Source of the DNA: Thermodesulfobacterium thermophilum DSM 1276
Lineage (GTDB): Bacteria > Desulfobacterota > Thermodesulfobacteria > Thermodesulfobacteriales > Thermodesulfobacteriaceae
Assembly (NCBI RefSeq): GCF_000421605.1
Contig: NZ_ATXI01000015.1
Span: 1 to 41,396 of the forward strand
Direction: 5' to 3'
DNA: 41,396 nt
Below the pieces are notes generated by a model. That model saw only the letters and a program-made list of their open reading frames with translations. It was not told where the DNA came from and made no database searches. Numbering within the stretch: the first letter of the stretch is position 1; every line of letters begins with the position of its first letter. This document shows positions 23,858 through 41,396 of the stretch, in pieces. Both the position numbers and the translations under genes were made by a program.

Positions 23858-23885
23858 GTTAATATTAGCTATTATCGATATTAAC
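23858..23885. repeat. Inverted repeat GTTAATAT-N12-ATATTAAC
   Basis: Perfect 8-bp arms at 23858-23865 and 23878-23885 with a 12-base spacer, ending 27 bases before the cas6 start codon. The geometry fits a dimeric regulator binding site or a weak 5' UTR hairpin. No T run follows it, so it is not a terminator. Confidence 0.45.
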
Positions 23886-23912
23886 TTTAGTTTAGAGAAA
23901 AAAGGGACTACT

Positions 23913-24704
23913 ATGAGGCTTCAATTTAGATTTAAAGTTAACAAACTTCCTATACTTTATCGACACAGATTTATGGCTTTGATAAAAGAAGCTATATCCA
24001 ATCAAGATATTCGTTATAAGAAGTTGCTTTATCCAGATAAAAAAGCTGTTTTTTCTAAAGTAGTAAAACCCTTTACTTTTGCGGTGGTTTTTCCAAAAAA
24101 TAAAAAAATAAAAAAAGAAAAAATACAGATAGATGAATCAACCTTTATTGAAGATTCGGTCTTTTATTTTCCAGCAGACTCCTATATATCTTTTTTTATG
24201 AGTTCTTTTGATTTAGAGTTTATGATTAATCTTTATAACGGTCTACTTGAGCTTAGTAGTTTTGATTTTGGAGGAGGTATTATTCTTCATCATCAAAGAA
24301 CACATCTCATTAAAGAAAAGAAAATTAACTCTAATGAAGTAATATTTAAAACCCTATCACCTATTCTGATTGAAAGTAAAGATGGTACTCCCTTACTTCC
24401 AATTGATGGACAACTGGATGATTTTAATCTGCATTTTAATGAAATTCATAAAAGAATTTTTAAAGATATAAGAGGCAAGGAACCTATGGAGGAGTTTTAT
24501 CTTGAACCAATATTAATAAAAAAAACAGTTGTCAAACACACATTAAAAGGATTTAGAGAGCAGACAGGAAAACCTTACATGATGCTTACGTGTTTTGATG
24601 GTTGTTTCAAATTAAAAGGAAATCCAGAGGATTTGCAGTTGCTATATCAAGCAGGAGCAGGCTTAAGGACAGGTCAGGGCTTTGGCATGGTGGAAGTTGT
24701 ATAG
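23913..24704 (+). CDS. cas6: CRISPR pre-crRNA endoribonuclease Cas6
   Basis: Metal-independent RNase that cuts the repeat in the long CRISPR transcript to make crRNAs. The C-terminal glycine-rich loop GAGLRTGQGFGMVEVV is the Cas6 hallmark, and the N-terminal RLQFRFKVNKLPILYRH is a RAMP-type first strand followed by the usual helix. ATG 23913 is chosen over an in-frame ATG 57 bases upstream because AAAAAAGGG lies just before it and the upstream residues do not look like Cas6. Length is 263 residues. It is the first gene of the cas block and the only Cas6 seen, so it probably serves both effector modules. Confidence 0.85.
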   Translation: MRLQFRFKVNKLPILYRHRFMALIKEAISNQDIRYKKLLYPDKKAVFSKVVKPFTFAVVFPKNKKIKKEKIQIDESTFIEDSVFYFPADSYISFFMSSFDLEFMINLYNGLLELSSFDFGGGIILHHQRTHLIKEKKINSNEVIFKTLSPILIESKDGTPLLPIDGQLDDFNLHFNEIHKRIFKDIRGKEPMEEFYLEPILIKKTVVKHTLKGFREQTGKPYMMLTCFDGCFKLKGNPEDLQLLYQAGAGLRTGQGFGMVEVV

Positions 24705-25338: not shown

Positions 25339-26463
25339 ATGTCAATAGGAAGTAGAATGAACTGGTGGCTGGATTTAGGAATGGTTTATTGTTATGAATT
25401 GAACCAAAGTGGCAATTTATCTGATCCTGAAATCCCAACTCGGTTGTTTAAAGTAGCATCTAATATAGTTGATAGGATAGGTGAAAAGAGAAATCCATAT
25501 CTTTCAATTATAAATACGACTCTTTTAAACAATTATATTGCAAATCCCAAAAATAAATCCAAAAGGCAAAGCGAAGAGGATATTAAAAGTCTCTTTAGTA
25601 CAAAACCAGAACCTGCAGAGATTAATTGTAGTTTTTGTGGTCAAATGACAACAAAAAATAAAGACAGTATTGCCGGGCGTAAATGGATTGTCTCAGGTGG
25701 CTGGGAGGGTTCACCTCTTTATGCTGGCGGAGGTTATATTGCACCAAGAATATGTTTAAATTGTAGAAGGTTATCTTTATTGGCTGCATTTAAGGCATAT
25801 GAATTATTTGTAAAAGAAAAATTGCCATTCATCATCTATAATCCTGATATTCAGTTATATAAGAAGCTTCTGGATAATTTACTTCTCAGAAAAGATTTAA
25901 ATCTGAATTTTGAAAGATCTTCATCAATTTTTCTTTCTCTTGGAAGTTTGCTGGTTTATCCTAATTTTGACAGGCGAGGAAATATAGAGAGTTTTGATTT
26001 ACGGCCTCTCTTGCCTAAGGCTTCTTTAATGTTAATGAATCTGTCAGGTTTATTGAGAACAAAAGGTAAAGAACAATATATTTTAGAGATTGTTGAAAAG
26101 TATCGGGATAAAGCAGGAGCAAAATTAGTATCAGATTTTCTTATGAAGCAGTCTAAATTATCTTCAGATGAGGTTGTTATAGCATTTTATGCCTTTGTTA
26201 AAGCTTATAAAGGAGGTATTGGTATGACAAAAGAGTTTTTTGATCTCGGCAAAAAACTTGGAAATGAATTAGGTGATAAGGCTTATTCTTCAGCATTAAA
26301 ACTATATAAATCTCTCAAGGATCCTACACAACTTCAAAAGCAAGTAATAGGAATATATATTTATCTAAAACAGCCGATCCCACCTGAACTTACAAAAATA
26401 ACTGAGAACGATGAATATGCACTTGCATTTATTATGGGTATAATGAACACAATTAAAGGATAA
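25339..26463 (+). CDS. cas8b: Type I-B Cascade large subunit Cas8b1/Cst1 (CXXC-CXXC family)
   Basis: Large subunit of the DNA-targeting complex, expected to recognise the PAM. Two zinc-binding pairs are seen: C97/C100 (CSFC) and C139/C142 (CLNC), separated by a Gly-rich stretch, the layout of the Cst1 (CXXC_CXXC) group of the Tneap-type I-B systems. The N-terminal NWWLDLGMVYCYELN fits the group. Length is 374 residues, short for a Cas8. It lies 3 bases after the toxin fragment and 12 before cas7. Assignment relies on both motif and gene order. Confidence 0.8.
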   Translation: MSIGSRMNWWLDLGMVYCYELNQSGNLSDPEIPTRLFKVASNIVDRIGEKRNPYLSIINTTLLNNYIANPKNKSKRQSEEDIKSLFSTKPEPAEINCSFCGQMTTKNKDSIAGRKWIVSGGWEGSPLYAGGGYIAPRICLNCRRLSLLAAFKAYELFVKEKLPFIIYNPDIQLYKKLLDNLLLRKDLNLNFERSSSIFLSLGSLLVYPNFDRRGNIESFDLRPLLPKASLMLMNLSGLLRTKGKEQYILEIVEKYRDKAGAKLVSDFLMKQSKLSSDEVVIAFYAFVKAYKGGIGMTKEFFDLGKKLGNELGDKAYSSALKLYKSLKDPTQLQKQVIGIYIYLKQPIPPELTKITENDEYALAFIMGIMNTIKG

Positions 26464-26475: not shown

Positions 26476-27474
26476 ATGAAAGGAGTAACATTAACAATGG
26501 TTGTTAAATTTACAGGAACTCCTTCAATGGGAGAAGGGCTTGGTGGTAATATTAATCCTATGAAAGTATTGACAACAGATATAGGCGACTTTCCCTATCT
26601 CTCACCCAATGCAATATTAAAACAGCCCTTGATGGAGTATTTTGTAAAAGAAAAGAAATGGCAGTTTGAATTTCGTAAAAATATAAATATAGCTCCTAAG
26701 AAAAAAGCCACGGATAAACCTCCGCTTCAAATAACAAGCTTTGCAGATGAAGATCCATTTGCTGATATATTTGGATATTTATTTACAAGAAAAAAAACTG
26801 GAGGAGGTAAAAAAGAAAAGAGTGAAGAAGAAAGTGTTGGATCGGAAGAAGCACCAGAGGAAACACGAAAAAGGAAATCTCCTCTTGGCGTCTCTTATGC
26901 TATAGGCTTGATGGGCTTTAAAAATTGTCTTGATTATAGAACCAATCTCGGACTGGTCGAATTGTCAGGCTCAAAAGGAGAAGGACAGATGATTTTCCAG
27001 AGAGAAATAGACATGAACTATTTTGTTTATACGCTTAATCTTGATTTACAGCGTATTGGTAAAGAGGAAAATAAAGACAAGAATAACGAGGTTAACACAG
27101 ATGAGAAGTTAAATAGGGTTAAGGCAATTTTAGAAGCGATACCCTATATTGCTATCCATAGAAATGGCGCTTTAGTGGGTACTCTAAGACCTCATCTTGT
27201 TGTGGGTGGTGTTTTTGAAAAGAAGTTTCCATATTTTATTGACTCAATTGTATGGGATAAAAATAAGAATGCGGTCAAAGCTAAGGCTATTAATGACATT
27301 ATTGATGAATATGAACTTAAATCAGACGATAATAATTTATTAGTCTTTGGTATCCATGAGGGCTTTCCATTGGATGGGCAAGTGAATATTAAAACTATGT
27401 TACCCAAGAAGGCAATAGATAAAGTTGTAGATTTTATAGAGAAAAATAAGGAAAAAATATGGAAAACAACATAA
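26476..27474 (+). CDS. cas7: Type I-B Cascade backbone Cas7 (Cst2/DevR family)
   Basis: RAMP-fold subunit that polymerises along the crRNA spacer. The N-terminal LTMVVKFTGTPSMGEGLGGN is followed by the DevR/Cst2-type segment KSPLGVSYAIGLMGFKN, and LVGTLRPHLVVGGVFEKKFPYF lies in the C-terminal half. Length is 332 residues. Between about residues 112 and 136 it has a highly charged Gly/Lys/Glu insert (GGGKKEKSEEESVGSEEAPE) that looks disordered. AAGGAGG precedes the ATG. Its last 16 bases overlap cas5. Confidence 0.85.
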   Translation: MKGVTLTMVVKFTGTPSMGEGLGGNINPMKVLTTDIGDFPYLSPNAILKQPLMEYFVKEKKWQFEFRKNINIAPKKKATDKPPLQITSFADEDPFADIFGYLFTRKKTGGGKKEKSEEESVGSEEAPEETRKRKSPLGVSYAIGLMGFKNCLDYRTNLGLVELSGSKGEGQMIFQREIDMNYFVYTLNLDLQRIGKEENKDKNNEVNTDEKLNRVKAILEAIPYIAIHRNGALVGTLRPHLVVGGVFEKKFPYFIDSIVWDKNKNAVKAKAINDIIDEYELKSDDNNLLVFGIHEGFPLDGQVNIKTMLPKKAIDKVVDFIEKNKEKIWKTT

Positions 27475-28205
27475 AAATCATCAAAATAAATATCTGGGGA
27501 CAGACAGCGCATTTTAGGATATATGGCAACCAGAATTTTTGCGATTCTTATCCTTTACCGCCACCTTCAACAGTGCTTGGAATATTAAGGGAAGCTCTCG
27601 GTGAAAGACCACCAGAGCCTTTAACCCTTGCAATCAAGGGATGGTTTAAAGGAGTATTCTTTGACTACCAGACCTTTCTACATGGTGCAATTGAGCTGGA
27701 TAGTAAAAAGGGCTGGTGGGTGAGGAGAAAAATTAATCGGTATTCGGACGCAAAAAAAGGCGATGATGTACAGCTAAACCCTTTATATGTTAAGATTTTA
27801 TTCAAACCACAATATACTATATATCTTTTTACACCTGAGCACCATAATTATTACCTATCAAAACTCAAGGATCCTCAAGGCTTTATTTCTCTCGGTAGAA
27901 GTGAAGATATAGCAATGTTTAAAACTGTCTCTGTTAGTGCTGAAAAGAAAAAGGCTGAAAAAAAGGATAAGATAAAAATTGAAAATTCCTATCTACCAAG
28001 AGAGTTATATGGCTCGACACCTTTGTTTTTACCAGTTTCTCATTTGAAAGATAGGAACCTGAAGATGGAAAAGATTTATTATATTCAGCAATCTGTGTCT
28101 TATTATGAAGGCGAATATTGGAAAACTTCTGATGGCGATTGTTTTTTATGGCTATTAGAATACAAAGATACGATAAACGGGAATTTGCCAATATTATTGG
28201 GGTAG
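27459..28205 (+). CDS. cas5: Type I-B Cascade subunit Cas5
   Basis: RAMP protein that caps the 5' handle of crRNA in the Cascade. IKINIWGQTAHFRIYGNQNF is followed by SYPLPPPSTVLGILREALGE, the classic Cas5 N-terminal pattern with the PP-S-xxG-(I/L)-R element. Length is 248 residues, typical. The start overlaps the cas7 end, which suggests coupled translation and keeps subunit levels linked. Confidence 0.9.
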   Translation: MENNIKIIKINIWGQTAHFRIYGNQNFCDSYPLPPPSTVLGILREALGERPPEPLTLAIKGWFKGVFFDYQTFLHGAIELDSKKGWWVRRKINRYSDAKKGDDVQLNPLYVKILFKPQYTIYLFTPEHHNYYLSKLKDPQGFISLGRSEDIAMFKTVSVSAEKKKAEKKDKIKIENSYLPRELYGSTPLFLPVSHLKDRNLKMEKIYYIQQSVSYYEGEYWKTSDGDCFLWLLEYKDTINGNLPILLG

Positions 28206-28209: not shown

Positions 28210-30438
28210 ATGCAAAGAATTTTAGCTAAAAGCAATCCTGAAAAAGAGTTGTACGAACATACACTTGAAGTGATTCAGTGTGCTGAAAGAGAGATTTACA
28301 ATTTACGATTACTTGGATTGAATATTGACAATACTATGGAAAAGGCTATTAAGATTTGTTGTTTTGCACATGATTTGGGTAAGGTTTCAAGAGCCTTTCA
28401 GGACTCCTTATCGGGAAGTAGAAAATATATCCCTCATAATCTCTTATCGGTAGCTTTTCTTAAAACCATCTTTGACCAAATAAGCGATATTCCGGATCAA
28501 TTAAAAAATAAGATAATCTATGCAGTAGGTTTTCACCACAAAAATTTTTTAGAGCTTAGTGATTTCATTAATGATTCAAAAAGAGCAGGGACCGACGGGC
28601 TTGAAGATGAACTCATTGATATAGAGACAAATAGGCTCCATCTGCTTAAGCCTATGCAGGAATTATTCAAAGAATATTTCAATGCTGATATTAAATTTAG
28701 CATAGATTACAGTATTATCGATAAACTAAAAGACATAATTTTTGATTTAAATCCATTTGATAAAGAAATTGTACACCTTAAAGGGATTTTACATAGGGCA
28801 GATCATATAGCATCTGCTGGAATAAATGAAGAATCAAAGATATATCTAAACTCTGAAGCATACAAGACTCTTAAACTTAAAATTACTCCTAAAAAATTTC
28901 AGGAAGAAATTGTTAATAAAGGAGAATCTCTTCTTCTTATTGCTCCTACTGGAAGTGGCAAGACCGAGGCTGCTTTATGTTGGGCAGGAAACAGAAAAGG
29001 AAAGATTATTTTTACCCTGCCTACAAGAGCCTCTGTTAATGCCGCATTTAGGAAGTTACAAAAATATTATGGTGATGATGTCGGCATACTTCATGGTGAA
29101 GCGGGCAGATTTATTTATTCAACTTTAAGGAGGGAATATGATGAAACAGAAGCATTAGAGGAAAGCATTTATGAAGTAAATCTCTGTAAAAATTTATTAA
29201 AGCCAATTGTAGTAACAACAATTGATCAGATTTTTTCATTTGCACTTAGAGTGCATCAGTATGAAAAGGTTCTTATGGGACTTTACGGTGCAAATATTGT
29301 TTTAGACGAAATAGATTCATATTCTCCATATACTATTGAAATATTGAAACAGAGCCTTAAAATAGCACGTCAATTTGACATAAACTTTTTAATTATGTCT
29401 GCGACAATCCCGGATATTCTGAAAGAGGAACTTAAAAAAGAAGGAATTGTGTCGGAAGAATATATCCCAGAATGGGAAGAGATAGAACTAAAAAATGAAT
29501 CTAATCATGAAATACAAATTATTAATGATGATATTATTAATTGCTACAAAACCATAAAAGATCTTTCTAATGGTGAACGAGAAAGTATCCTTATTGTTTG
29601 TAATACCATTAAAAAGGCGGTTTACGTTTATGAAAAGTTAAAAGATCTGTCACCCAAACTTTATCATTCATTGTTTACTTTTGATGACAGGGAAATTAAA
29701 GAAGCAGAAATAGCTCAAGCTGACCATAACGGCAGAAGTACAGGTATATGGATTACAACTCAAGTAGTAGAGGTTTCTCTTGATTTAGATTTTGATGTAT
29801 TGATAACAGAAGCTGCACCTGTGAATGCTTTAATACAAAGAATGGGTAGATGTTATCGTAAGCGTAAAGGTGTAGGGAAAGTCTTTATCTATTCAAAATC
29901 TATAAATGATAACAGTAACAGAGAATTTTATCCGTATGGAGAGCTTGCAATTAAAGAGAGTTTAAAGGCATTTGAAGGGAACAATGGTGTTTTAACTTGG
30001 CAAGAAAAGTTGAAGATTTTAAACAATTACTTTAAGAAATATTGGCAAAGTAAAAAAATTATTGATGAGAAGACGAGAGCAAAGAATATTGTTGGAGCTT
30101 TTCTAAGTTCTGACCTCACAATGCTTGAAACAGTTAGTAACAACGAGGTAAGCAGATTTTTAAGGGATTCTGGCGTTTTATTCAATGTAATTCCTGTATC
30201 AAAATTAGAAGACTCAGAAATAGAGAAGCTTAATGGGAACTATAAATGGAGAGACAGGGATGAAAAGTTGACCTTTTTGTATCAGATAAGAGGTAAAATA
30301 ATTTCTGTTCCAATATATAGTTTACTAAAATTCAGGTCGTTTTTTGAGGAGACAAGATACGGTATGTTTCTGGCTCATTTAGACTACAATAGCGAGACAG
30401 GACTTAATCTTAAAACTTTACCTTCAAATTTTGGATAA
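28210..30438 (+). CDS. cas3: CRISPR helicase-nuclease Cas3 with N-terminal HD domain
   Basis: Effector that unwinds and degrades target DNA after Cascade binding. The N-terminal HD nuclease has H54-D55 (FAHDLGKVSRAF) with further His/Asp in GFHHKNF and LHRADHIASAG. Walker A APTGSGKT is at 245-252, motif II reads DEID (366-369), motif III MSATIP, and motif VI QRMGRCYRKR. Length is 742 residues. Motif II ends in Asp where Cas3 proteins usually have DEVH/DExH, but all other motifs are intact, so activity is expected. It lies 4 bases after cas5 and 3 before the ERCC4 gene. Confidence 0.93.
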   Translation: MQRILAKSNPEKELYEHTLEVIQCAEREIYNLRLLGLNIDNTMEKAIKICCFAHDLGKVSRAFQDSLSGSRKYIPHNLLSVAFLKTIFDQISDIPDQLKNKIIYAVGFHHKNFLELSDFINDSKRAGTDGLEDELIDIETNRLHLLKPMQELFKEYFNADIKFSIDYSIIDKLKDIIFDLNPFDKEIVHLKGILHRADHIASAGINEESKIYLNSEAYKTLKLKITPKKFQEEIVNKGESLLLIAPTGSGKTEAALCWAGNRKGKIIFTLPTRASVNAAFRKLQKYYGDDVGILHGEAGRFIYSTLRREYDETEALEESIYEVNLCKNLLKPIVVTTIDQIFSFALRVHQYEKVLMGLYGANIVLDEIDSYSPYTIEILKQSLKIARQFDINFLIMSATIPDILKEELKKEGIVSEEYIPEWEEIELKNESNHEIQIINDDIINCYKTIKDLSNGERESILIVCNTIKKAVYVYEKLKDLSPKLYHSLFTFDDREIKEAEIAQADHNGRSTGIWITTQVVEVSLDLDFDVLITEAAPVNALIQRMGRCYRKRKGVGKVFIYSKSINDNSNREFYPYGELAIKESLKAFEGNNGVLTWQEKLKILNNYFKKYWQSKKIIDEKTRAKNIVGAFLSSDLTMLETVSNNEVSRFLRDSGVLFNVIPVSKLEDSEIEKLNGNYKWRDRDEKLTFLYQIRGKIISVPIYSLLKFRSFFEETRYGMFLAHLDYNSETGLNLKTLPSNFG

Positions 30439-30441: not shown

Positions 30442-31521
30442 ATGTCTACCTTCTTCATCCTTGAATCAGTTAACAATCTAAAATTTCCATATCGCCTGAC
30501 TATCAGGCAGGGTGAAAAGGTGCTTCTTGCTCTAAGGGTTCAGGATAGATGGCCAGGGCAAAAGGGGAATATCTTTTGTATAAGAGAGGACAACAAAGAG
30601 CTTGACCCACCTGTTGAGGAAATTGAAAGAGTCCCTGTTGTCTCATTAAAGCGTTATGGAAAAAGATTAGCTATTGTTCTTGATAGACCTATAAATAAAC
30701 GTTGCGATTTTCTTTTTTTAAAAAAGAAGTATAAAACCAAAGAAGGTGAATACGAACAGATATTCTGGAGGACTCAAAGGGCTCTTACTGAAAGGAGACC
30801 AAGGGTTAAGCTCAGTACTTACCACAAAGGCAAACTAAATTTGATAGTGGATGCAAATGAAAGATATCCCTGGAAATTTCCTGATTCTGAAATAAAGAAA
30901 GACAAACTACCTGTAGGTGATTATGCATTGATTAACGAAACAGGCATAGTTGCAGTGGTAGAGAGAAAGACTTTTGACAATCTTCTTGCTGAATTGGGCA
31001 GAATGTCTGCTTTTCATCAGCAACTTGGAGAGCTTGAAGCATACAGGTATGCAGCAGTAGTAATAGAGGCAAATTACTCTGATTTCCTTAATCCTAAAAA
31101 GATTAAATTTTATACTCCAGCTTTTGCCGCCAAGGCTATTGCTGAGCTTTATGCGATGCATCCAAATCTCGCCATAGTATTTGCAGGTAATCGTAAACTT
31201 GCAAATGAATGGGCTTATAGATTTTTTTGTGCTATAAATGCTCATGAAAATGATACCCCACATGCAAAAGTCTCTGAAGTGATTGAAGAATACAGAGCCT
31301 CTCAGGAAACCAGGGGAGGGTTATATTTCGAATTAAGAAAGAGCATCATTGAAGGATTTCAAGAAGAGTTTACACTTTCAGAAATAAAAGAAAAATTTCC
31401 ACATGCATCTGTTTCAACCATAAGAAAACTGCTTAATGATTTAAATAAAGAGGGTGTTATTACAAAGTACACCAAAGGCAGGAAAAGCTATTGGAAAAAA
31501 ATAAATAAAGCTGATGAATGA
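30442..31521 (+). CDS. ERCC4 (XPF/MUS81-type) nuclease with N-terminal unknown domain and C-terminal winged helix
   Basis: 359-residue protein not among the core Cas families. Residues about 134-265 form an ERCC4 nuclease domain: VDANER at 136-141, GD at 159-160 and ERK at 174-176. The acidic residue that should follow in ERKxxxD is N180 here, with D179 one place earlier. Residues 1-130 are an unrecognised, mostly beta-strand-like domain. Residues about 305-355 look like a winged helix (FTLSEIKEKF ... SVSTIRKLLNDLNKEGVI). ERCC4 enzymes of the XPF/MUS81 type cut branched DNA such as flaps. No helicase or HhH domain is fused. The gene sits 3 bases after cas3 and overlaps cas4 by 8 bases, so it is co-translated with the operon. 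A role in spacer acquisition or target DNA processing is inference. Confidence 0.85.
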   Translation: MSTFFILESVNNLKFPYRLTIRQGEKVLLALRVQDRWPGQKGNIFCIREDNKELDPPVEEIERVPVVSLKRYGKRLAIVLDRPINKRCDFLFLKKKYKTKEGEYEQIFWRTQRALTERRPRVKLSTYHKGKLNLIVDANERYPWKFPDSEIKKDKLPVGDYALINETGIVAVVERKTFDNLLAELGRMSAFHQQLGELEAYRYAAVVIEANYSDFLNPKKIKFYTPAFAAKAIAELYAMHPNLAIVFAGNRKLANEWAYRFFCAINAHENDTPHAKVSEVIEEYRASQETRGGLYFELRKSIIEGFQEEFTLSEIKEKFPHASVSTIRKLLNDLNKEGVITKYTKGRKSYWKKINKADE

Positions 31522-32038
31522 ATTAAAAGAAGATAGCTTTGACTTTCAAACACTTAAAACCAATGGTATCAAAGTAAACTATCTCTATGTTTGCGAGCGC
31601 AAGCTCTGGCTTTTTGACAGGGGAATCCAGATGGAGTCAAAATCTGACAGAGTTCTTATGGGGAAACTTCTTGGAGAGTATTCATACCCAAGAGATGAAA
31701 AAAAGGAAATACTTATTGACAACCTGATAAACATAGACATCGTTGGAGACAGTAACATAAGAGAAGTTAAATACAGCAACCGTCTTGCCCATGCTGATAG
31801 AATTCAGATACTTTATTATCTATACTATTTAAAACAACTCGGCATCGAAAAGCGAGGTATTATTAACTATCCTAAAATGAGGAAAAAGGAAGAAGTTGTT
31901 CTCACAACGGAAGCAGAATTAGAAGTTGAACAGGCTTTAATCAAAGTTCATGAAATAACTAAAAAAGATAAACCGCCAGCACTTCAGAAAAAACCATATT
32001 GCCCTAAATGTGCATATTATGAATTTTGCTGGGGGTAA
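31514..32038 (+). CDS. cas4: CRISPR adaptation exonuclease Cas4
   Basis: RecB-like Fe-S exonuclease that trims prespacers and helps choose the PAM end. Four cysteines for the cluster are present: C27 (YVCERKLWL), C163, C166 and C172 (CPKCAYYEFC). The RecB motif residues are D in NIDIVGD, E and K in REVKYS and Q/Y in QILYYLYYL. Length is 174 residues. It overlaps the ERCC4 gene by 8 bases. Its usual neighbours cas1 and cas2 are displaced 7.6 kb downstream by the cmr module. Confidence 0.92.
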   Translation: MNELKEDSFDFQTLKTNGIKVNYLYVCERKLWLFDRGIQMESKSDRVLMGKLLGEYSYPRDEKKEILIDNLINIDIVGDSNIREVKYSNRLAHADRIQILYYLYYLKQLGIEKRGIINYPKMRKKEEVVLTTEAELEVEQALIKVHEITKKDKPPALQKKPYCPKCAYYEFCWG

Positions 32039-32059: not shown

Positions 32060-33265
32060 ATGAAGACTGTAACTTTAAAAATCAAAACCATTACTCCAAC
32101 ATTCATGGGTGGTGGTGACGGAAAGTTTGACGAGATAAGGACATCTGAGATTAAAGGTATGTTGAGATGGTGGTTCAGAGCACTGGCTGGTAGTTTTGTA
32201 GGAAATGACTATAAAGAATTAAAAAAATACGAAGGGAGATTTTTTGGTATAGCCGATGCTAAAAAAAGCAGTCAAAAAAGTAAATTTAAATTACTAATAA
32301 CTAACAGTAAGCTGAATTTTATAAATAGAAATACATCTGGCATTCCCCTAAATGGATATACCTATCTTGGCATTGGCAATGTCATTTTCAAATGGCAAAA
32401 AGAAAGTAGAAATTTTATTCCAAATCCGAATAAATCAGGCATACAGGGCAATGTATTAATAGATGCTGGTTCTACTTTTGATTTAGAGTTTTTCTTTTAT
32501 CCAGGCACCACCAAAGAAGAAATAAATCTCATCACAGGCTCTTTCTATCTTGCAACAGCACTTGGAGGATTTGGCTTGAGGGCAAGAAAGTGTTTTGGTA
32601 GCTGGCAGATTATAAAGAATGAAGGCTTGGATTTAGTATTTAATCCAACGGACTATACTAAAGAGGGTATAGAAAAGAATATAGGACACTTAAAAGGTAT
32701 TCTTAATAAAGAATTTAGCAATCCAACTCCTGCCACTGAATATCCTGCTATTGATGATTCACAATTTATTTTTGAAGTGATACAAACCAATGAAACAGAC
32801 TATAAAGCTCTCTTAGATAATTTTGGGAAACATTATCGTGGCTTCAGGGTTTGTGCAGAAAAGCCTAAACCCGGAGTTCCAGGAACAGGGATTCATACAA
32901 CGGATTTTGATTATTTAATCAATGCAAATAAGCCAAAAAACTGTGATGGGCTTCAAAATTTTAGAAATTACAAAGTAAGGAATGCCCTCTTTGGACTTAA
33001 TATCGTATATCCCAATAAGAAAATTCTTAGGCTTGAAAGACCTAAAGACAACAATGAAAAAGAAATTTTAAGGCGAGCTTCTCCGATATGGTTCAGTGTA
33101 AAGGAGATTTATAATAAATTAAATCTTCATATTGTGCTTTTTAAATCTCGATTTGCTCCTGAAAATAGCAAAGTAAAATTTGATAATAGAGAGGCTCAGG
33201 TTGAGGAATATACATTTCTTGAACAAAGATTTATACCCTACATTAAAAAAAGTTTAGGAGGGTAA
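32060..33265 (+). CDS. cmr1: Type III-B complex subunit Cmr1
   Basis: RAMP subunit at the 3' end of the crRNA in the Cmr complex, contacting target RNA. IKTITPTFMGGGDGK near the start, SEIKGMLRWWFRALAG (about residues 31-46) and ATALGGFGLRARKCFGSW (about 167-184) are the Cmr1 signatures. Length is 401 residues. AGGAGG at 32047-32052 gives a clear start 21 bases after cas4, the largest gap inside the cas block, which fits a cassette junction. Confidence 0.92.
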   Translation: MKTVTLKIKTITPTFMGGGDGKFDEIRTSEIKGMLRWWFRALAGSFVGNDYKELKKYEGRFFGIADAKKSSQKSKFKLLITNSKLNFINRNTSGIPLNGYTYLGIGNVIFKWQKESRNFIPNPNKSGIQGNVLIDAGSTFDLEFFFYPGTTKEEINLITGSFYLATALGGFGLRARKCFGSWQIIKNEGLDLVFNPTDYTKEGIEKNIGHLKGILNKEFSNPTPATEYPAIDDSQFIFEVIQTNETDYKALLDNFGKHYRGFRVCAEKPKPGVPGTGIHTTDFDYLINANKPKNCDGLQNFRNYKVRNALFGLNIVYPNKKILRLERPKDNNEKEILRRASPIWFSVKEIYNKLNLHIVLFKSRFAPENSKVKFDNREAQVEEYTFLEQRFIPYIKKSLGG

Positions 33266-33266
33266 A

Positions 33267-35096
33267 ATGTCTGATTATCTTTGTCTTATAACTATTCCTT
33301 CAATTGGAAAGCTTATTAAATATTCAAGGAGGACAGAGGACCTCTGGGCTGGTAGCATGATTGTGGCAAGTCTTATAAAGAGCTTTATATCAGAGATAAA
33401 AAATAAATATGCTGGAAGAATAGAACTAATATTTCCATCATCTGTTAGTAAAGACCAAAACTCTGATTTTGCTGATATTTCAAATAAAGTTCTTTTTAAA
33501 GTTCTCAAATCAAATGAAAAAGAAATAAAGGCTATAGCAGGAGAGATAGAAGCAATTACTTATAAAGGGCTTAGTGACTTAGTTGATAGTATTTTTCGTA
33601 AATGTGGGATTAATATCGATGATTATAAAGTTCTCGCTTATCATCAGGCAAAAAGTACAATCAAACTATTCTGGGCTGCCCTTCCAGTTGAAGGAGATTA
33701 TAAAGCTACAAGGCAGCATCTTGATGCATTTACTGGATATTTAAAGGATGCATATATAAAAAATGATGAAGTGTTTCAAAGTTATAAGTTGATTAAGCGA
33801 CAGAAACCTGAAAGTTCGTTTGATAATTATCAGAACACAGAAGACTATGAAAAATATTGCAGAGGAGCATATACCTGTACAGTTTGTAAAGAAAATACCA
33901 TTATAGGGGCAACTGAGAAAGATTACAAAGGAAGCGATTTCTGGAGGCAATACTGGAAAAACCACAAAGCAAAATTTAAAGAAGGTGAAAGACTCTGTGG
34001 CTTCTGTCTTATTAAAAGATTCTTAGCAGAATATTTAAAAAAACAGTCCTTTCCTTCTACAAGCGAGATGGCCGCTACAGTGTTTAAGAAACAGGTGATT
34101 GATAATTCAGAGGCACTTGAGGAATTAACTCGTATTTTTGAGCAAGTAATTAATAAATTACCCCGAGGCAATTCTGTGAAGAAGTTGGGAGAGGAATTCA
34201 AAAAGAAATCTAATCAAAAAAATATAGAACTTCTCAAAATTGATGGTGAGTGGTTTATGATTGACACGTGGAAAAATCCAAATACTTATGCTGTATATGG
34301 TATAAATGACGATGAGGCAAAAAGAGTATGTTCACAACTGGAGGATTTTTATAAATCTCATAAAAAACCATCTGAGATGTACGCCATCTTCAAACTTGAT
34401 GGGGACAACATGGGAGCAAAGATTTCAGCTCTTGACAAAAAAGGACATAAAAAATTGAGCGAATTACAATATAGTTTTGTAGAGAAAGCAAAAGAATTTA
34501 TCTACGAATACTATGGTGCTCCAGTTTACATTGGAGGGGATGATATTTTTGCATTTTTGCCTGTTGAGTATGTTCTTGAGTGTGCAAAGTCAATCAGGAG
34601 TGAATATGAAGTCCACATGAAGGAAATTGCAAGCCAGTTATCGGGCTCACATAGTTTTACTATGTCAGGAGCTATATTAGTTGCCCATCATCTCCTACCT
34701 TTACAGTATTTAATCAAAGAACTTTATGAAATTGAAAAAGAAGCAAAATCCCAGAAAGGCAAAGACTCAATTGGCATAAAATTTATCAAACACTCCCTTT
34801 CATCAGATGAGGTAATATTGAAATGGGATAAACTTAGCGAGTTTGAAAGATTAAGGGATATACCAAAATCGTTTATCTATCAATTAAGTAGTGTATCAAA
34901 TGTTTTTGAAGATAAGGATGGTTTAAATGAATTTCATGCACGACAGGCTTTCATAAGGAGCCTATTAAAAAGAAAAGTGAAATCGGACAGAATAGAGGGA
35001 ATTATAGATCAGCTTATTGAGGTTGACAAATTATTAAATTTTAATCGTTTAAGTTCGTTGTTAAGTATACTTCATGTAATCAAAGGAGGAGATTAA
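33267..35096 (+). CDS. cas10: Type III-B Cas10/Cmr2, HD-less, with intact GGDD cyclase motif
   Basis: Large subunit of the Cmr complex. The first palm-like domain begins right at the N-terminus (YLCLITIPSIGKLIKYSRRT then EDLWAGSMI). A zinc site is formed by C204/C207 and C244/C247. The second palm has D378 and D380 (LDGDNMG) and GGDD at 423-426 (VYIGGDDIFAF), the cyclic oligoadenylate synthase centre. At 609 residues it lacks the N-terminal HD nuclease domain found in many Cas10 proteins, so no DNase function is expected. It starts one base after the cmr1 stop codon. The signalling output would suit the Csx1-type gene that follows. Confidence 0.92.
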   Translation: MSDYLCLITIPSIGKLIKYSRRTEDLWAGSMIVASLIKSFISEIKNKYAGRIELIFPSSVSKDQNSDFADISNKVLFKVLKSNEKEIKAIAGEIEAITYKGLSDLVDSIFRKCGINIDDYKVLAYHQAKSTIKLFWAALPVEGDYKATRQHLDAFTGYLKDAYIKNDEVFQSYKLIKRQKPESSFDNYQNTEDYEKYCRGAYTCTVCKENTIIGATEKDYKGSDFWRQYWKNHKAKFKEGERLCGFCLIKRFLAEYLKKQSFPSTSEMAATVFKKQVIDNSEALEELTRIFEQVINKLPRGNSVKKLGEEFKKKSNQKNIELLKIDGEWFMIDTWKNPNTYAVYGINDDEAKRVCSQLEDFYKSHKKPSEMYAIFKLDGDNMGAKISALDKKGHKKLSELQYSFVEKAKEFIYEYYGAPVYIGGDDIFAFLPVEYVLECAKSIRSEYEVHMKEIASQLSGSHSFTMSGAILVAHHLLPLQYLIKELYEIEKEAKSQKGKDSIGIKFIKHSLSSDEVILKWDKLSEFERLRDIPKSFIYQLSSVSNVFEDKDGLNEFHARQAFIRSLLKRKVKSDRIEGIIDQLIEVDKLLNFNRLSSLLSILHVIKGGD

Positions 35097-35098
35097 AG

Positions 35099-36487
35099 AT
35101 GGAAAAATCAATTTTTCTTTATCCTCTTGGGGATCTGAGTAAATATAGAGAAATTACATATATTTATAATTCGGAGGAAAATAAATCTAAACTTCCAATT
35201 CTGTGGCTTTGTGAGAAACTAGAAAATGTTGAAAAAATAGTATTTGTTATTACAAAAAAATTGCAGAAAGATTACTATCTACTCTTTGAAAATCTTTGCG
35301 AATTTTTGCTCAATAAAAGAATTGACGAGGTGTTTGAAAAAGATATAATTAAGCGTTTTAAACGAAAAGAGAATTATGAAGAACATAAAAGTCTTTTTTG
35401 TGAGACTTTAAAATCAAAAACTAACTTCACATATGATTTTTTAGTTATTGATGAAGATAACCTTGTATCTTTTGTAGCTAATTTAAAGACATTTATGGAA
35501 AAACATATTGACAATATTTTTCATATAGACATTACTCATGGATACCGGTTTATACCTATGTTTTTAACAATAGTGGTATCACTTCTTAAAAATGCAGGTT
35601 TACCTATCAAGCTTGGAGAGATATTATATGCCTTCGGTGAAACTTCAGCAAAAAACAGAGTTATAAGTCTTAAGGAATATATGGGTGTTATGGATTGGTC
35701 ACACGGTATTTTCACATTTAAAAACAGTGCAAATATTAGACCTATTGCAGAGTTTTTACAGGGCTTAATGAATGATATTTCCGAAACACTGAATACTCTT
35801 CAATCTTCCCTTGATATGAATCTTTCTCCTAAAATAAAGGAAACCTTAAAAGAATTAAAAATAAAAATTAATGATTGTAAATTTGAGAATGATGTATATT
35901 CACTAGTTTTAGAAGAAATAAGAAAAATGCTTGGTGAATTTAAGAGCAATGGTTCTCAATCTGAATTTGAGTTTTCCCTTGCAAAGTGGCATTTAGAGAA
36001 TAAGAGATACCTTCATGGATACGTCGCATTGATTGAGTCTTTAGTAACTAAACTCTGTGAGGCATATAAACTTAATTCGTCTAAAAGAGAAGACAGGGAA
36101 ATAGCTAAAGCAATTCTCATACCAATAAAAGAAAATCACCAAAATGAAGAATACAAACAATTTATTGATAAGTACATTAAAGGCAATGCTGCTTTGTATG
36201 ATATTCAGAAACCATTAAGTATATTATTCAATGAATTAAGCAATATAAGAAATTGCTTTGCTCACATAAAAGATTTATCTGAAGATGAGGCAAATAAAAT
36301 CTATAAAAATTCAATTAAATTAGCCGAACATTTGACTCCTTCAACTTTAAGTAAGAAGATTAAATGGGAGAAGTTTGAAGCAATATTTGAAGATATAGAA
36401 AGATTGCCGAACCTTTTAGTAGTAGAAAAGCTTAGAGAACTGTCAAATATTTATAAAAACCTAAGCAAGGAGCAAGGCAATGTATAA
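35099..36487 (+). CDS. csx1: Csx1-type CARF-HEPN ribonuclease (TM1812-like)
   Basis: Predicted second-messenger-activated RNase of type III immunity. The N-terminal CARF domain contains DITHGYRFIP (D144, H147, R150), the ligand-site motif of the TM1812/Csx1/Csx2 group. A helical linker follows at about residues 210-300. The C-terminal HEPN domain has R384-N-C-F-A-H389, the RxxxxH catalytic motif. Length is 462 residues. It starts 2 bases after cas10 and overlaps cmr3 by 8 bases, so it lies inside the cmr operon between two structural genes. Activation by cyclic oligoadenylate is known for the family and inferred here; the ring size cannot be told. Confidence 0.88.
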   Translation: MEKSIFLYPLGDLSKYREITYIYNSEENKSKLPILWLCEKLENVEKIVFVITKKLQKDYYLLFENLCEFLLNKRIDEVFEKDIIKRFKRKENYEEHKSLFCETLKSKTNFTYDFLVIDEDNLVSFVANLKTFMEKHIDNIFHIDITHGYRFIPMFLTIVVSLLKNAGLPIKLGEILYAFGETSAKNRVISLKEYMGVMDWSHGIFTFKNSANIRPIAEFLQGLMNDISETLNTLQSSLDMNLSPKIKETLKELKIKINDCKFENDVYSLVLEEIRKMLGEFKSNGSQSEFEFSLAKWHLENKRYLHGYVALIESLVTKLCEAYKLNSSKREDREIAKAILIPIKENHQNEEYKQFIDKYIKGNAALYDIQKPLSILFNELSNIRNCFAHIKDLSEDEANKIYKNSIKLAEHLTPSTLSKKIKWEKFEAIFEDIERLPNLLVVEKLRELSNIYKNLSKEQGNV

Positions 36488-37505
36488 CTATCTTATAAAA
36501 CCAATTGATTTATTCATATTAGGCAATCCTTCCCCCTTTAACAGTGCTGAACAGACCTACAGAGCCTCAGAAAAAATTATAAATCCTATACCTTTTTTCG
36601 GAGCACTTAGAAAAAAGTTTAAGGATGCACAGATTAATTTTATATCCTTGATTAGTAAAAATAAATTTCTTTTTCCCTTACCATTTGATATTGTGAAGAC
36701 TGATACCGATTATAAACAGGGAATATTAAAGAGAACTGCTTCATCTAAGTTTGTATCTGACTCAGAGGATGAATATTGGGTCAGTTTTGGAGAAGAAAAA
36801 ATTCATAGAGAATTTGATAGATATATTGATTCTTACTTTATGGACAAATATTTGCTCAGTGAATTTGAAGTGGAGAATATTAAAACCTCGGAGCCAATCA
36901 AAACAGAAAAAAGAATCGGCATAAAGATAGATAGACAAAAGAGGACTACAGAAGAAGGATTTTTATACTTTGAAGAGTATCTCAGATTTAAAGAGGATTC
37001 TGCTTTTTATATCAAAACTAACTTTAAAGCTTCAGAAAAGACAATCAAACTTGGTGGTGAATCAAGGATGGCTATTTTAGAAGAAATAGAAATAGCTATT
37101 GAAGATGAATTTGTAAATATTGATCGCATTCAAGAACATATTATCAATAATGGTCTTTTTAAGCTAATACTTCTTACACCTACTAACGGTCCATGTGAAA
37201 TATCTGGAGCAAGGATGATTGCTAAGGTAGTAGAAAGACCCTATGTTTACTCAGGCTGGTTAAGAAAGGATAAGGACGCCTTTCCATCAAGGCTATTCAA
37301 CCTCATAAAACCGGGTGCTGTTTTTTATTACAGAATTGAAAACAGTAATAGAGAAGAGTTTGTAAAATCCCTTTTTAATAGATTCTGGCTAAAGCCTGCA
37401 TTTTTTAAACCTGATTTTCCATACTTTGAAAGCTTAGATGGGATAAATCCACTATGTTTAGGATTAACAATAATAGGCACAGTTAAGGAGGTTAGCTATG
37501 AGTAA
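36480..37505 (+). CDS. cmr3: Type III-B complex subunit Cmr3
   Basis: Cas5-like RAMP subunit that binds the crRNA 5' handle and pairs with Cas10. IKPIDLFILGNPSPFNSAEQ then INPIPFFGALRKKF is typical for the Cmr3 N-terminus, and the C-terminal half shows GARMIAKVVERPYVYSGW followed by FNLIKPGAVFYYRIE. Length is 341 residues. It overlaps csx1 and cmr4 by 8 bases each. Confidence 0.9.
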   Translation: MYNYLIKPIDLFILGNPSPFNSAEQTYRASEKIINPIPFFGALRKKFKDAQINFISLISKNKFLFPLPFDIVKTDTDYKQGILKRTASSKFVSDSEDEYWVSFGEEKIHREFDRYIDSYFMDKYLLSEFEVENIKTSEPIKTEKRIGIKIDRQKRTTEEGFLYFEEYLRFKEDSAFYIKTNFKASEKTIKLGGESRMAILEEIEIAIEDEFVNIDRIQEHIINNGLFKLILLTPTNGPCEISGARMIAKVVERPYVYSGWLRKDKDAFPSRLFNLIKPGAVFYYRIENSNREEFVKSLFNRFWLKPAFFKPDFPYFESLDGINPLCLGLTIIGTVKEVSYE

Positions 37506-38325
37506 TTTAGCTGTATTTTACCATTTTTACACATCTCTACACTTTGGTAGCGGCACAACATTAAGTTACATTGATCTTCCAGTAGAAAGGGAATCTCATA
37601 CGAACTATCCTGTAATGCCGTCAACGGGAATTAAAGGTGTATTCAGGGCATGTTATCAGCAAACATACGGAGAAGAAAAAGCTGAAAGCATTTTTGGTAA
37701 AGGAGATGAAGAAGGAAAACTCACATTCGTTGACGGACGAATACTATTCTTCCCTGTAAAATCTGCAAGAGGAGTTTTTGTATGGATTACCTGTCCTATG
37801 GTTTTGCAAAGATTTGAAAGGGATATGAAAATTATAAAATCTGATTTTAAAATTAATTTTCTGGCAAGCCTTAATTTTGATAATGATGAGGTGGCTTATG
37901 TTTCAAGTGATAGAATTACAGTCAATGATTTTTTAATTCTTGAAGAACTGAGTTTAAAAAAAAAGAATAACATTGATTTTAATTGGATTGACCAGCTTAA
38001 GATTGGTATAGATAAATCAAGAATAGCGGTTATTTCTGATAATATGTTTTCATATTTTGTCAAGAATGCAACTGAGATAAATGCAAGAATTAGAATTGAC
38101 CAAGAGAAAGGAACCGTTGAAGAAGGGGCACTATGGTATGAAGAACTCGTGCCAGCGGAATCTGTATTTTATAGCCTTGTAATTGAAAGGAGTAAGGATA
38201 GTTGTAAGGATTTACAGCAATTCATTAAGACTTACAATAATCAGATTTTCCAGTTTGGTGGAAATGAAACCCTTGGCCGTGGTTTTGCAAAAGTAATTCT
38301 ATATGGAGGGGAGAAAAATGGCTAA
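37498..38325 (+). CDS. cmr4: Type III-B backbone and target-RNA nuclease subunit Cmr4
   Basis: Cas7-like subunit that repeats along the crRNA and cuts target RNA at 6-nt steps. LHFGSGTTLSYIDLPVERES contains the Asp (YID, residue 27) that matches the catalytic Asp of characterised Cmr4. MPSTGIKGVFRACYQQTYGE and the C-terminal GGNETLGRGFAKV are further signatures. Length is 275 residues. RNA cleavage is therefore expected to be intact. Confidence 0.92.
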   Translation: MSNLAVFYHFYTSLHFGSGTTLSYIDLPVERESHTNYPVMPSTGIKGVFRACYQQTYGEEKAESIFGKGDEEGKLTFVDGRILFFPVKSARGVFVWITCPMVLQRFERDMKIIKSDFKINFLASLNFDNDEVAYVSSDRITVNDFLILEELSLKKKNNIDFNWIDQLKIGIDKSRIAVISDNMFSYFVKNATEINARIRIDQEKGTVEEGALWYEELVPAESVFYSLVIERSKDSCKDLQQFIKTYNNQIFQFGGNETLGRGFAKVILYGGEKNG

Positions 38326-38752
38326 GACTCTTGAACAAAAAAGGGCAGAATATGCATATAAGATTGTTGAAAGAGTAAAAGATCAAAGCTATGCATCAGA
38401 TTTTTCATCGCTCGTATCAAAGATGCATTCATATATACTAACAAACGGTCTTGGAAACACCCTGGCTTTTCTATTTTCAAAGGGCAAAGAGCACCATCTT
38501 CTTATCGCTGGCATAATGGCTGACTGGATACTGAGAAAGTGCAAAATTGTTTCTACTAACGGTTTTGATAGGTTTAATGATCACTGGATTTTTAATAGTG
38601 ATAAAGTCAAAAGCAAATTAGGTGATATTTTGAATGGCCTTGTTCTGGAACTAGATGTATATCATTACTCTGTGGTTACAAATGAACTACTTTCTCTTTT
38701 CATCTGGCTCAAGCGGTTTTCAGATGGAATTATTGAAAAAGGAGGTAAGTAA
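38318..38752 (+). CDS. cmr5: Type III-B small subunit Cmr5
   Basis: All-helical small subunit that lines the target-RNA channel. AKTLEQKRAEYAYKIVERVK at the start and the two later helices (NTLAFLFSKGKEHHLLIAGI; ELLSLFIWLKRFSDGIIE) match the family. ATG 38318 is chosen over in-frame ATG 38303 because GGAGGGGAG at 38305-38313 lies just before it. Length is 144 residues. It overlaps cmr4 by 8 bases and its stop touches the cmr6 start. Confidence 0.9.
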   Translation: MAKTLEQKRAEYAYKIVERVKDQSYASDFSSLVSKMHSYILTNGLGNTLAFLFSKGKEHHLLIAGIMADWILRKCKIVSTNGFDRFNDHWIFNSDKVKSKLGDILNGLVLELDVYHYSVVTNELLSLFIWLKRFSDGIIEKGGK

Positions 38753-39649
38753 ATGTATTTAGTTCCTAATAATTCAAAGATCTCTAATAATTTTCTACCT
38801 GATAATCCGCTTTTACTAATGAATAAGTTTATAAAAATAATTAATGTGAATGACAATAGTAAACTGGAAATTTTAAAAATTGATAAAGCAAAAACAGAGA
38901 TTTTTAGAAGCTTGAAAAGTGATATTATTTTGAGAAATATGAAAAAGCTTTTTTCTGAAATAAATAAAAAAATGAAGATTATTGCTAAATCTTATTCCTT
39001 ATTCACCTCTTCTCGACTTATTGTGGGTCTTGGCTCAACCTCAGTGCTTGAGACATCAATAAAACTTCACCACATCTATGGAGTGCCATACATACCTTCA
39101 ACTGCTATTAAAGGACTCTTGAGGGCATACAAACTCTGGAAGCTTGCTGACTGGGATATGGAGCTTTTCAGCGCATTTGAGTATGCAATTAAATTAGTTT
39201 ATGAGAAATGTAAAGAGCCAGAAAAGGAGTTTTGCGAAAGACTAAACAATATCCAGAAAAAAGAATTAAAGCCTGAGGCAAATATTTTGTTGGACAAGAC
39301 AGAGATGATTTTTAAAAAGAAGAACGAATTATTTGAAATTTTACAAATCTTCGGCAGTCAGGTAAATAGAGGAAGCCTAATAGTTTTTGATGCCTATCCT
39401 GAGCAGTTGAATGGTTTTGAAATTGACATAATGAACCCCCACTACCCTGACTACTACCAGGATAATCAACCGCCTGCAGATTGGCAGAATCCAAATCCTG
39501 TAAAGTTTCTTGTTTTACCTGCGGGAACCAGATTTAATTTTTACTTTTTAAATCCCTATGAGCAGCTTGAAAGTGATCTGAAAAATGCTTTACAACTACT
39601 TGGAATAGGTGCAAAAACAGCTCTTGGGTATGGAGTTTTTCAATCATGA
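38753..39649 (+). CDS. cmr6: Type III-B complex subunit Cmr6
   Basis: RAMP subunit near the 3' end of the crRNA next to Cmr1. LIVGLGSTSVLETSIKLHHI, then GVPYIPSTAIKGLLRAYKLW (about residues 112-131), FGSQVNRGSLIVFDAYPE, and the C-terminal LLGIGAKTALGYGVF are Cmr6 hallmarks. The first 75 residues are less typical. Length is 298 residues. Its last 4 bases overlap the cas1 start (ATGA). Confidence 0.9.
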   Translation: MYLVPNNSKISNNFLPDNPLLLMNKFIKIINVNDNSKLEILKIDKAKTEIFRSLKSDIILRNMKKLFSEINKKMKIIAKSYSLFTSSRLIVGLGSTSVLETSIKLHHIYGVPYIPSTAIKGLLRAYKLWKLADWDMELFSAFEYAIKLVYEKCKEPEKEFCERLNNIQKKELKPEANILLDKTEMIFKKKNELFEILQIFGSQVNRGSLIVFDAYPEQLNGFEIDIMNPHYPDYYQDNQPPADWQNPNPVKFLVLPAGTRFNFYFLNPYEQLESDLKNALQLLGIGAKTALGYGVFQS

Positions 39650-40623
39650 GAAACTATTATATTTTCTCAAATGGAAGGCTGAGACGGAAGGATAACACCA
39701 TTTACATAGAAAACGAGCAGGGTGACAAAAAAGCCATACCCATTGAAGATGTAGATACCATCCATGTTTTTGGAGAAGTTGATCTAAACACGAAACTTCT
39801 TAATTTTCTCTGCCAGCACGGAAAGACTGTACATTTTTACAACTACTATGGATTTTACTCTGGAAGCCTTATGCCAAGAGACAGAAACGTATCAGGGCAT
39901 CTTTTAGTAAAACAGGTTGAACATTATCTTGACCAAGAACGCAGATTTTATCTTGCTTTTTCCTTTGTAGAGGGTGCAATCTTTCACATGTTAAGAAATC
40001 TAAGAGAATATAAAAATACTGAAGGATTTCAGGAAAAAATCAAAAAAGAGTTAACCAATGCCGTTGAGGCAAAAAACATCAGTGAGCTTATGGGATGTGA
40101 GGGTAGGGCAAGAGATGTTTATTATGAGGCATTCAATACTATCTTAAAATCAGATTTTTCAATGGAAAAAAGAGAGAAAAGACCTCCTACAAATCCCGTT
40201 AATGCTTTAATTTCCTTTGCAAACAGCATGATTTACACAACAGTGTTGAATGAGATATATCATACCCAGCTGAACCCTACAATAAGCTATCTTCATGAGC
40301 CAGGGCACAGGCGATACTCTCTAAGTCTTGATATTGCAGAGATATTTAAACCTCTCATAGCAGACCCAATTATATTTAAATTGATAAACAACAACATGCT
40401 CAGGCTTGATGACTTTGAGGAAGATGTAAATTATTGCTATCTGAATGACAGTGGTAGAAAAAAGTTTATCAAAGAGTTTGACCAGAAGCTTACCACAACG
40501 ATAAAGCACAGAAAAATGAAAAGAAAGGTTTCTTATAGGAGTTTGATTAGGATTGAGTGTTACAAGTTGATTAAACATTTGATAGGAGATGAAGTATATA
40601 AACCTTTTAAGGCTTGGTGGTGA
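39646..40623 (+). CDS. cas1: CRISPR integrase Cas1
   Basis: Metal-dependent integrase that inserts new spacers with Cas2. Catalytic residues are visible: E152 (GCEGRARDVYYEAF), H217 (SYLHEPGH) and D229 (LSLDIAEIFKPLIADP). The type I-B style is shown by the N-terminal YYIFSNGRLRRKDNTIYI and IPIEDVDTIHVFGEVDLN. Length is 325 residues. It is coupled to cmr6 by ATGA and followed 3 bases later by cas2. No reverse transcriptase or Cas6 fusion is present. Confidence 0.96.
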   Translation: MRNYYIFSNGRLRRKDNTIYIENEQGDKKAIPIEDVDTIHVFGEVDLNTKLLNFLCQHGKTVHFYNYYGFYSGSLMPRDRNVSGHLLVKQVEHYLDQERRFYLAFSFVEGAIFHMLRNLREYKNTEGFQEKIKKELTNAVEAKNISELMGCEGRARDVYYEAFNTILKSDFSMEKREKRPPTNPVNALISFANSMIYTTVLNEIYHTQLNPTISYLHEPGHRRYSLSLDIAEIFKPLIADPIIFKLINNNMLRLDDFEEDVNYCYLNDSGRKKFIKEFDQKLTTTIKHRKMKRKVSYRSLIRIECYKLIKHLIGDEVYKPFKAWW

Positions 40624-40626: not shown

Positions 40627-40893
40627 ATGCCGTATTTGATTGTTACCTATGATATAGGAGAAGAAAGGCTAAATAAAGTGAGAAAAATTCTTAAAAAATA
40701 CTTTATGTGGGTTCAGAATTCGGTTTTTGAGGGAGAGATTAGTGAGGGAAAGTTATTAAAGTGCAAGTTAGAGCTGGAAAAGGTAATCGATAAAGAAAAT
40801 GATTCTATATATTTTTACAGTCTTGAGAACAGGTTGAACTACAGAAAAACAGTCCTCGGAATTGAAAAGGATATGACAGGGAATATTTTATGA
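40627..40893 (+). CDS. cas2: CRISPR adaptation protein Cas2
   Basis: Ferredoxin-fold dimer that holds the prespacer between two Cas1 dimers. MPYLIVTYDIGEERLNKVRK carries the conserved Asp (D9) on strand one, and WVQNSVFEGEISEGKL is the second family signature. Length is 88 residues. It is the last cas gene; the leader and array follow on the same strand. Confidence 0.95.
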   Translation: MPYLIVTYDIGEERLNKVRKILKKYFMWVQNSVFEGEISEGKLLKCKLELEKVIDKENDSIYFYSLENRLNYRKTVLGIEKDMTGNIL

Positions 40894-41100: not shown

Positions 41101-41396
41101 GTTTCATCTGAACCATGTGGGATATAAAGTTAAAAAGAAAGTATCTTCAAGTGTTGACCTACTTGGTTTCATCTGAACCATGTGGGATATAAAGCTCTTC
41201 TTCATTTTTAGCAAAATATTGATAAAGCAAGTTTCATCTGAACCATGTGGGATATAAAGTCTGCTGATGCGGTAATAACATTACTAATCGCCTTTCAGTT
41301 TCATCTGAACCATGTGGGATATAAAGAATCATGCAAGGCCACAAAAGCATTTAATCTTGTTGTGTTTCATCTGAACCATGTGGGATATAAAGACTT
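41101..41396 (+). CRISPR. CRISPR array, five repeats visible, continues past the window
   Basis: Five identical 29-base repeats start GTTTCATCTG and end GGGATATAAAG, at 41101-41129, 41166-41194, 41231-41259, 41298-41326 and 41364-41392. Four complete spacers of 36, 36, 38 and 37 bases lie between them and a fifth begins at 41393. There is no decay in any repeat, consistent with the leader-proximal, recently extended end. The last 8 bases, ATATAAAG, would form the crRNA 5' handle if Cas6 cuts at the usual place; this differs from the common ATTGAAAC/G form. Confidence 0.98.

Follow-up and report, generated by a model that had tools for sequence, protein, structure and literature searches.

Can a type III-B CRISPR complex act through signalling when its Cas10 carries no HD nuclease domain, and is the destruction of DNA then left to a Cas3 encoded in the same operon? 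These questions are raised by a contig of Thermodesulfobacterium thermophilum DSM 1276 (NZ_ATXI01000015.1, here called the window and analysed over its whole length of 41,396 nucleotides), in which an HD-less cas10 adjoins a gene for a Csx1-like CARF-HEPN ribonuclease. The window is a complete contig (C15) of a genome of 1.79 Mb in 46 contigs (G000). We consider it highly probable that the genes at 32060-39649 encode a type III-B (Cmr) complex with an HD-less Cas10, signalling to a Csx1-type effector that is encoded in the middle of the module. The genes concerned are as follows:

32060..33265, + strand, cmr1 (RAMP), profile above cut-off
33267..35096, + strand, cas10/cmr2, 609 amino acids (aa), without HD; palm1 from residue 2, palm2, two CxxC pairs
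35099..36487, + strand, Csx1-like CARF-HEPN protein, 462 aa; DITHG at 144-148, RNCFAH at 384-389
36480..37505, + strand, cmr3; best profile TIGR01888 (Cmr3), 62.5 bits, below the cut-off of 100.4
37498..38325, + strand, cmr4, backbone, with Asp26 as the predicted target-RNA cleavage residue; profile above cut-off
38303..38752, + strand, cmr5, profile above cut-off
38753..39649, + strand, cmr6, profile above cut-off

The Cmr set is thereby represented by Cmr2, Cmr1, Cmr4, Cmr5 and Cmr6 profiles above their cut-offs, with Cmr3 as the best match for its gene, below the cut-off.

A Cas10 without an HD domain

The absence of the HD domain from the window Cas10 is confirmed by sequence, profile and model. 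The protein scores 150.5 bits against NCBIfam TIGR02577 (Cmr2), above the cut-off, and two Pfam domains are likewise found above theirs: Cmr2_N at residues 6-61, which is the first matched domain, and Cas10-Cmr2_palm2 at residues 372-502. The cyclase motifs are intact (DGDNMG at 378-383 and GGDD at 423-426), CxxC pairs are found at 204 and 244, and, among 39 aligned Cas10s, residues D378, G379, D380, G383, G423, G424 and D426 are invariant and D425 is nearly so. Because the cas10 frame opens at 33258, only three codons before its ATG (612 codons in all), and cmr1 ends at 33265, there is no space upstream for an in-frame HD domain. A profile built from 58 Cas10 HD regions gave no match in the window Cas10 and, when applied to those frames of at least 80 aa in the 134 loci surveyed below that are not Cas10 frames, nothing at E<0.01. 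Given the lack of upstream space and the lack of an HD-profile match in the loci searched, we reject a cryptic or separately encoded Cas10 HD domain.

The AlphaFold model (mean predicted local distance difference test score, pLDDT, of 86.8) points the same way, as in structural alignment its first residue corresponds to residue 217 of Pyrococcus furiosus Cmr2 (3w2w; Z 32.3, root-mean-square deviation 3.0, 520 residues aligned) and to residue 2 of DtCmr2 (9arw; Z 27.0, deviation 3.4, 528 residues aligned). The original prediction, made from the DNA letters, held that this Cas10 has 609 residues, starts at its first palm domain and keeps GGDD at 423-426, all of which is borne out by the reading frame, the profiles and the model alignment. 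It had also proposed structure prediction of the N-terminus as a check, and the model begins at the palm domain, with no HD; a cryptic or separate HD domain, which it named as grounds for abandoning the idea, was sought through the frame limits and with the HD profile in the 134 loci, and none was found.

The Csx1-like effector and the proposed working of the III-B arm

The adjoining gene had been predicted to carry a CARF motif and R384-x4-H389, and both are present. The Csx1_CARF model scores 28.2 bits against a cut-off of 24.7, the DxTHG motif model is above its cut-off (DITHG at 144), and the best PADLOC match is to Csx1/Csm6 with CARF and HEPN domains. In the HEPN motif (RNCFAH, 384-389), R384, N385 and H389 are invariant among 25 aligned relatives. 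The predicted structure of the protein (mean pLDDT 83.8) has CARF-HEPN proteins as its nearest folds. The best Foldseek match is Marinitoga Csx1-Crn2 bound to cA4 (PDB 8y7g, E 6.5e-13), and the list of folds also holds a cA6-bound Csm6. The Marinitoga protein shares the CARF-HEPN fold but differs in having a fused ring nuclease, which the window protein lacks, and in being only 14% identical. As treated in PMC11229360, Csx1 is a family of CARF-HEPN proteins activated by cA4. A whole-genome search with Csx1_CARF returned the window gene as its single match, and no relative of the window protein was found among plasmids.

The gene content, the absent HD domain, the intact motifs and the folds of the III-B arm are direct observations, and they suggest the following course of events. 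The CRISPR RNA (crRNA) held in the Cmr complex would pair with a viral transcript, and Cmr4 would cut the bound target RNA through Asp26. The GGDD palm of Cas10 would then make a cyclic oligoadenylate, most likely cA4. With this messenger bound to its CARF domain, Csx1 would become active as a HEPN ribonuclease (R384/N385/H389) and degrade RNA without sequence choice. Cas10 itself would cut no DNA. The type I-B genes of the same run, with their intact Cas3, would form a separate DNA-targeting arm, probably sharing Cas6 and the CRISPR array. All the catalytic steps, the nature of the messenger and the common use of crRNAs are inferences from sequence and from analogy with published systems. As for Cmr4, the cleaving aspartate had been placed at position 27; the sole Asp among the first 40 residues is at position 26.

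A different messenger may be considered, namely a conjugate such as that of S-adenosylmethionine and AMP (SAM-AMP) in place of a cyclic oligoadenylate, for one III-B system that makes SAM-AMP is described in PMC11229360. This we hold to be extremely improbable here, as the adjoining effector is a CARF-HEPN protein and its family is defined in the same source as cA4-activated. We set SAM-AMP aside as the principal interpretation since nothing here points to it, with the proviso that no profile search was aimed at CorA or SAM-AMP-degrading enzymes.

Published systems lend support to RNA cleavage and cyclic oligoadenylate signalling without a Cas10 DNase. Among the closest systems is TtCmr of Thermus thermophilus, described in PMC8376896 as having neither HD domain nor DNase activity, as cleaving target RNA and as producing cyclic oligoadenylate on target binding, which activates TTHB144. 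TtCmr and the window system are alike in combining an HD-less Cas10 with a CARF-HEPN RNase as effector. They differ in that the Cas10s are 21.7-22.8% identical over about 70% of the protein (among the T. thermophilus plasmid matches listed) and in that, unlike in TtCmr, the effector gene of the window is flanked by cas10 and cmr3, and the cmr genes are preceded by a type I-B module. III-B Cas10s that lack HD, measure about 600 aa and possess the cyclase residues have been proposed to act by signalling alone (PMC8682760), and the same source shows signalling to NucC for VmeCmr of Vibrio metoecus. VmeCmr resembles the window system in its HD-less Cas10 of about 600 aa and its signalling mode, but its messenger is cA3, its effector NucC is a DNase and, in the account of PMC8682760, it has no adaptation genes. 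DtCmr (PDB 9arw) is an HD-less III-B system as well; its Cas10 has 612 residues and is the best phmmer match of the window protein (VIA Z 27.0), but the two are only 24% identical in structural alignment. More broadly, a set of 1113 type III loci is reported in PMC11229360 to include 437 with a recognisable HD domain and 1028 with a cyclase domain. Of the interpretation originally offered, one part is backed both by the anatomy of the locus and by these precedents and is the best reading, namely that the arm cleaves RNA and signals while its Cas10 has no DNase; the part that leaves DNA destruction to Cas3 is not supported, as discussed below. The signalling-only, HD-less III-B design is well founded, yet it has already been published in kind.

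Several points weigh against this reading. It rests on sequence and models, and the window Cas10 is very divergent: its best matching segments are 22-31% identical (in the best 80 of 430 genome-contig loci), and it lies on a long branch (1.95) whose position, basal to the main HD-less group, is weakly supported (SH-aLRT 82). As regards the effector, models TIGR02221 and TIGR01897 fall below their cut-offs, the relatives used are 15-24% identical and a phmmer search against the PDB returned nothing up to E 1. Moreover, no other locus of the survey was shown to have the identical gene order. A comparison of the window Cas10 with plasmids gave 21 records, all below 60%, with no close relative.

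A branch of this length, set against a median of 0.37, could also indicate that the window Cas10 belongs to a decaying or inactive lineage. We find this very improbable, given that the protein has an open frame, an intact palm, intact Zn-site cysteines and a high-confidence model, and that it is accompanied by a complete cmr set and an intact neighbouring effector. Both CxxC pairs are kept in the window Cas10, a feature seen in 13 of the 65 HD-less Cas10s and in 33 of the 51 HD-bearing ones. Because the window protein keeps them, its HD domain may possibly have been lost in an event distinct from the loss in the main HD-less group. The window adds a divergent and probably thermophilic case to the HD-less III-B Cas10s.

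HD absence and Cas3 linkage

The original prediction went further and left the destruction of DNA to Cas3, with the tasks split within one operon. The idea that Cas10 lost its HD domain since a Cas3 of the same operon destroys DNA has some basis in the locus, as cas3 and cas10 lie in one gene run and the HD and helicase motifs of Cas3 are intact. The run occupies one strand from 23856 to the contig end and comprises cas6, an AbiEii-like fragment, a putative cas8, cas7, cas5, cas3, an ERCC4-domain gene, cas4, cmr1, cas10, csx1, cmr3, cmr4, cmr5, cmr6, cas1, cas2 and a CRISPR array; strand and spacing suggest that it is a single transcript. Besides the cmr genes and csx1, it contains:

23856..24704, + strand, cas6, start codon TTG uncertain
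25339..26463, + strand, putative cas8 (type I large subunit), 374 aa, named from position only
26476..27474, + strand, cas7 (Cst2/DevR, type I-B), profile match
27459..28205, + strand, cas5b; TIGR01895 81.8, below the cut-off of 96.7
28210..30438, + strand, cas3, HD nuclease and helicase, 742 aa; HDLGK at 54, GSGKTE at 248, DEID at 366, QRMGR at 543
31514..32038, + strand, cas4
39646..40623, + strand, cas1 (Cas1b), profile match
40627..40893, + strand, cas2
41101..41392, + strand, CRISPR array, 5 repeats of 29 nucleotides, broken off at the contig end

If such a division of labour were general, one would expect HD-less Cas10s to be found beside Cas3 more often than HD-bearing ones. We surveyed 134 loci, made up of the best 80 of 430 confirmed genome-contig loci, 52 from the phylum of the window, the window itself and a second III-B locus of the same genome on contig C22. 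Thirteen were dropped (3 duplicates and 10 with incomplete Cas10), leaving 121: 65 without HD, 51 with HD and 5 of unclear status. Two of the 51 HD-bearing rows (L152 and L159) have no letters HD ahead of the palm. The genome-contig loci were ordered by their similarity to an HD-less query, and the HD-less share is therefore not a frequency. Counting only on the retrieved stretches, many of which are short, we found a Cas3 no more than 10 kb away in 6 of the 65 HD-less loci and in 7 of the 51 HD-bearing ones (Fisher p=0.56); before three Cas10s open at a contig end (L069, L091 and L127) were scored as unclear, the count was 7/68 against 7/51. Among loci with cmr4, the figures are 6/59 and 6/43 (p=0.76), and where at least 7 kb is available to either side of the locus, 5/27 and 3/21 (p=1), the last being a slightly higher Cas3 rate in HD-less loci.

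A Cas10 tree of 116 rows requires 5 changes in HD status and 12 in Cas3 linkage. The 10 independent tree pairs that differ in Cas3 differ in HD in 0.4 cases on average, always with the HD-less member beside Cas3 (0.4 against 0.0 of 10, or 1.4 against 0.0 of 11 before correction), which favours a split of tasks but is too few for a test. The best single case in its favour is a Desulfonauticus locus (L050) in which an HD-less Cas10 beside Cas3 is nested among HD-bearing relatives. Nevertheless, no significant preferential linkage of HD-less Cas10 to Cas3 was found in any of the three counts, and the changes on the tree are few enough that a weak effect could escape. In addition, the second III-B operon of the same genome joins Cas3', Cas3'' and an HD-bearing Cas10.

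An experimental case that bears on this question is the III-B system of Marinomonas mediterranea, for which PMC5576922 describes transcription-dependent plasmid interference with an HD-less Cas10 whose GGDD is needed. Interference survives the Cmr4 D26A change, and the type I-F operon, with its cas1 and cas2-3, is dispensable. The system resembles that of the window in its HD-less Cas10 with GGDD, its Cmr4 D26 and the presence of a type I system in the same cell; it differs in having separate operons for III-B and I-F, in its RT-Cas1 and in that interference has been demonstrated there. As this HD-less III-B system interferes without type I genes, the absence of HD need not leave DNA-bearing invaders to Cas3. 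In view of these counts, the second operon and the Marinomonas results, we regard the split of tasks as quite improbable, and HD absence as a trait of Cas10 lineages that is unexplained by the presence of Cas3. Even from a small survey, a caution follows that an HD-less Cas10 beside Cas3 is not to be taken as division of labour. Our literature searches found no paper on Thermodesulfobacterium with CRISPR and Cas10, nor any on HD loss with I-B, III-B and Cas3, and a search on SAM-AMP structures likewise returned nothing; we make no claim that this very operon is absent from the literature.

The second III-B locus and the remaining genes

The C22 locus (L006:1340-17255, minus strand) is a type I-A-like and III-B operon. 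It encodes a Cas3' helicase, a separate Cas3'' HD protein, Cmr1, Cas10, Cmr3 to Cmr6 and a Cas8a with a Cas11-like end. Its Cas10 is a protein of 922 aa in which HD is found at residue 13 and GGDD at 685. A CARF-RelE protein (PADLOC) is also encoded, as is an APE2256-family CARF protein whose match to the NCBI ring-nuclease model, at 65.9 bits, is far below the cut-off of 600 but real. The whole-genome searches, in turn, covered Csx1_CARF, Cas3 HD and Cmr2. On statistical grounds, it has been proposed that type III loci signal to one another (PMC11229360), and one may ask whether labour is split between the two III-B complexes, the window Cas10 signalling and the C22 Cas10 cutting DNA as well as signalling, with one cA4 pool and with effectors and clearance acting in trans. 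The window Csx1, the C22 CARF-RelE protein and the ring-nuclease-like CARF protein would then act on, or clear, signals from either locus. We put this forward tentatively and think it unlikely, but a genome with HD-less and HD-bearing III-B loci, each with its own CARF effector, would be a usable case for the question of inter-locus signalling as raised in PMC11229360.

Within the C22 operon, Cmr1 runs in frame into an MntA-like nucleotidyltransferase domain, which is followed by a HepT-like gene (L006:12653-14369); by their sequence, the two are predicted to be a toxin-antitoxin pair inside the III-B operon. The Desulfonauticus locus mentioned above has a HepT-like gene in the corresponding position, with cmr1 and cas10 on its two sides.

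Returning to the window, the type I-B set is represented by matches to Cas7, Cas3, Cas5, Cas6 and Cas1b, with Cas5b below its cut-off and Cas8 without a profile match. The product of 25339-26463, which has no Cas8 match in PADLOC or Pfam, is a putative divergent type I large subunit; it bears CxxC pairs. Between cas6 and this gene, a frame of 129 aa (24946-25335) matches the C-terminal part only (132-220 of 238) of an AbiEii nucleotidyltransferase profile. The ERCC4-domain gene within the cas operon (30442-31521), which has a possible winged-helix end, looks like a passenger. Besides the window copy, a search of 247 genomes of the phylum found four full-length relatives (48-62% identity); their flanks contain no cas gene by the profiles used, two of the four being on short contigs, and no relative was found in phages. 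An Rfam scan of the window gave no match.

A third Cas3 is encoded on contig C33 (L198:1442-3793; 784 aa, HD and helicase), next to cas5- and cas6-like genes. At their ends, C22 and C33 have 723 identical bases in common, including a cas6 start, and 5 further copies of the repeat of the window array lie at the end of contig C14, with no spacer in common (4 against 4). The assembly is thus broken at CRISPR loci, as seen in the shared ends of C22 and C33 and in the repeat that ends both C15 and C14.

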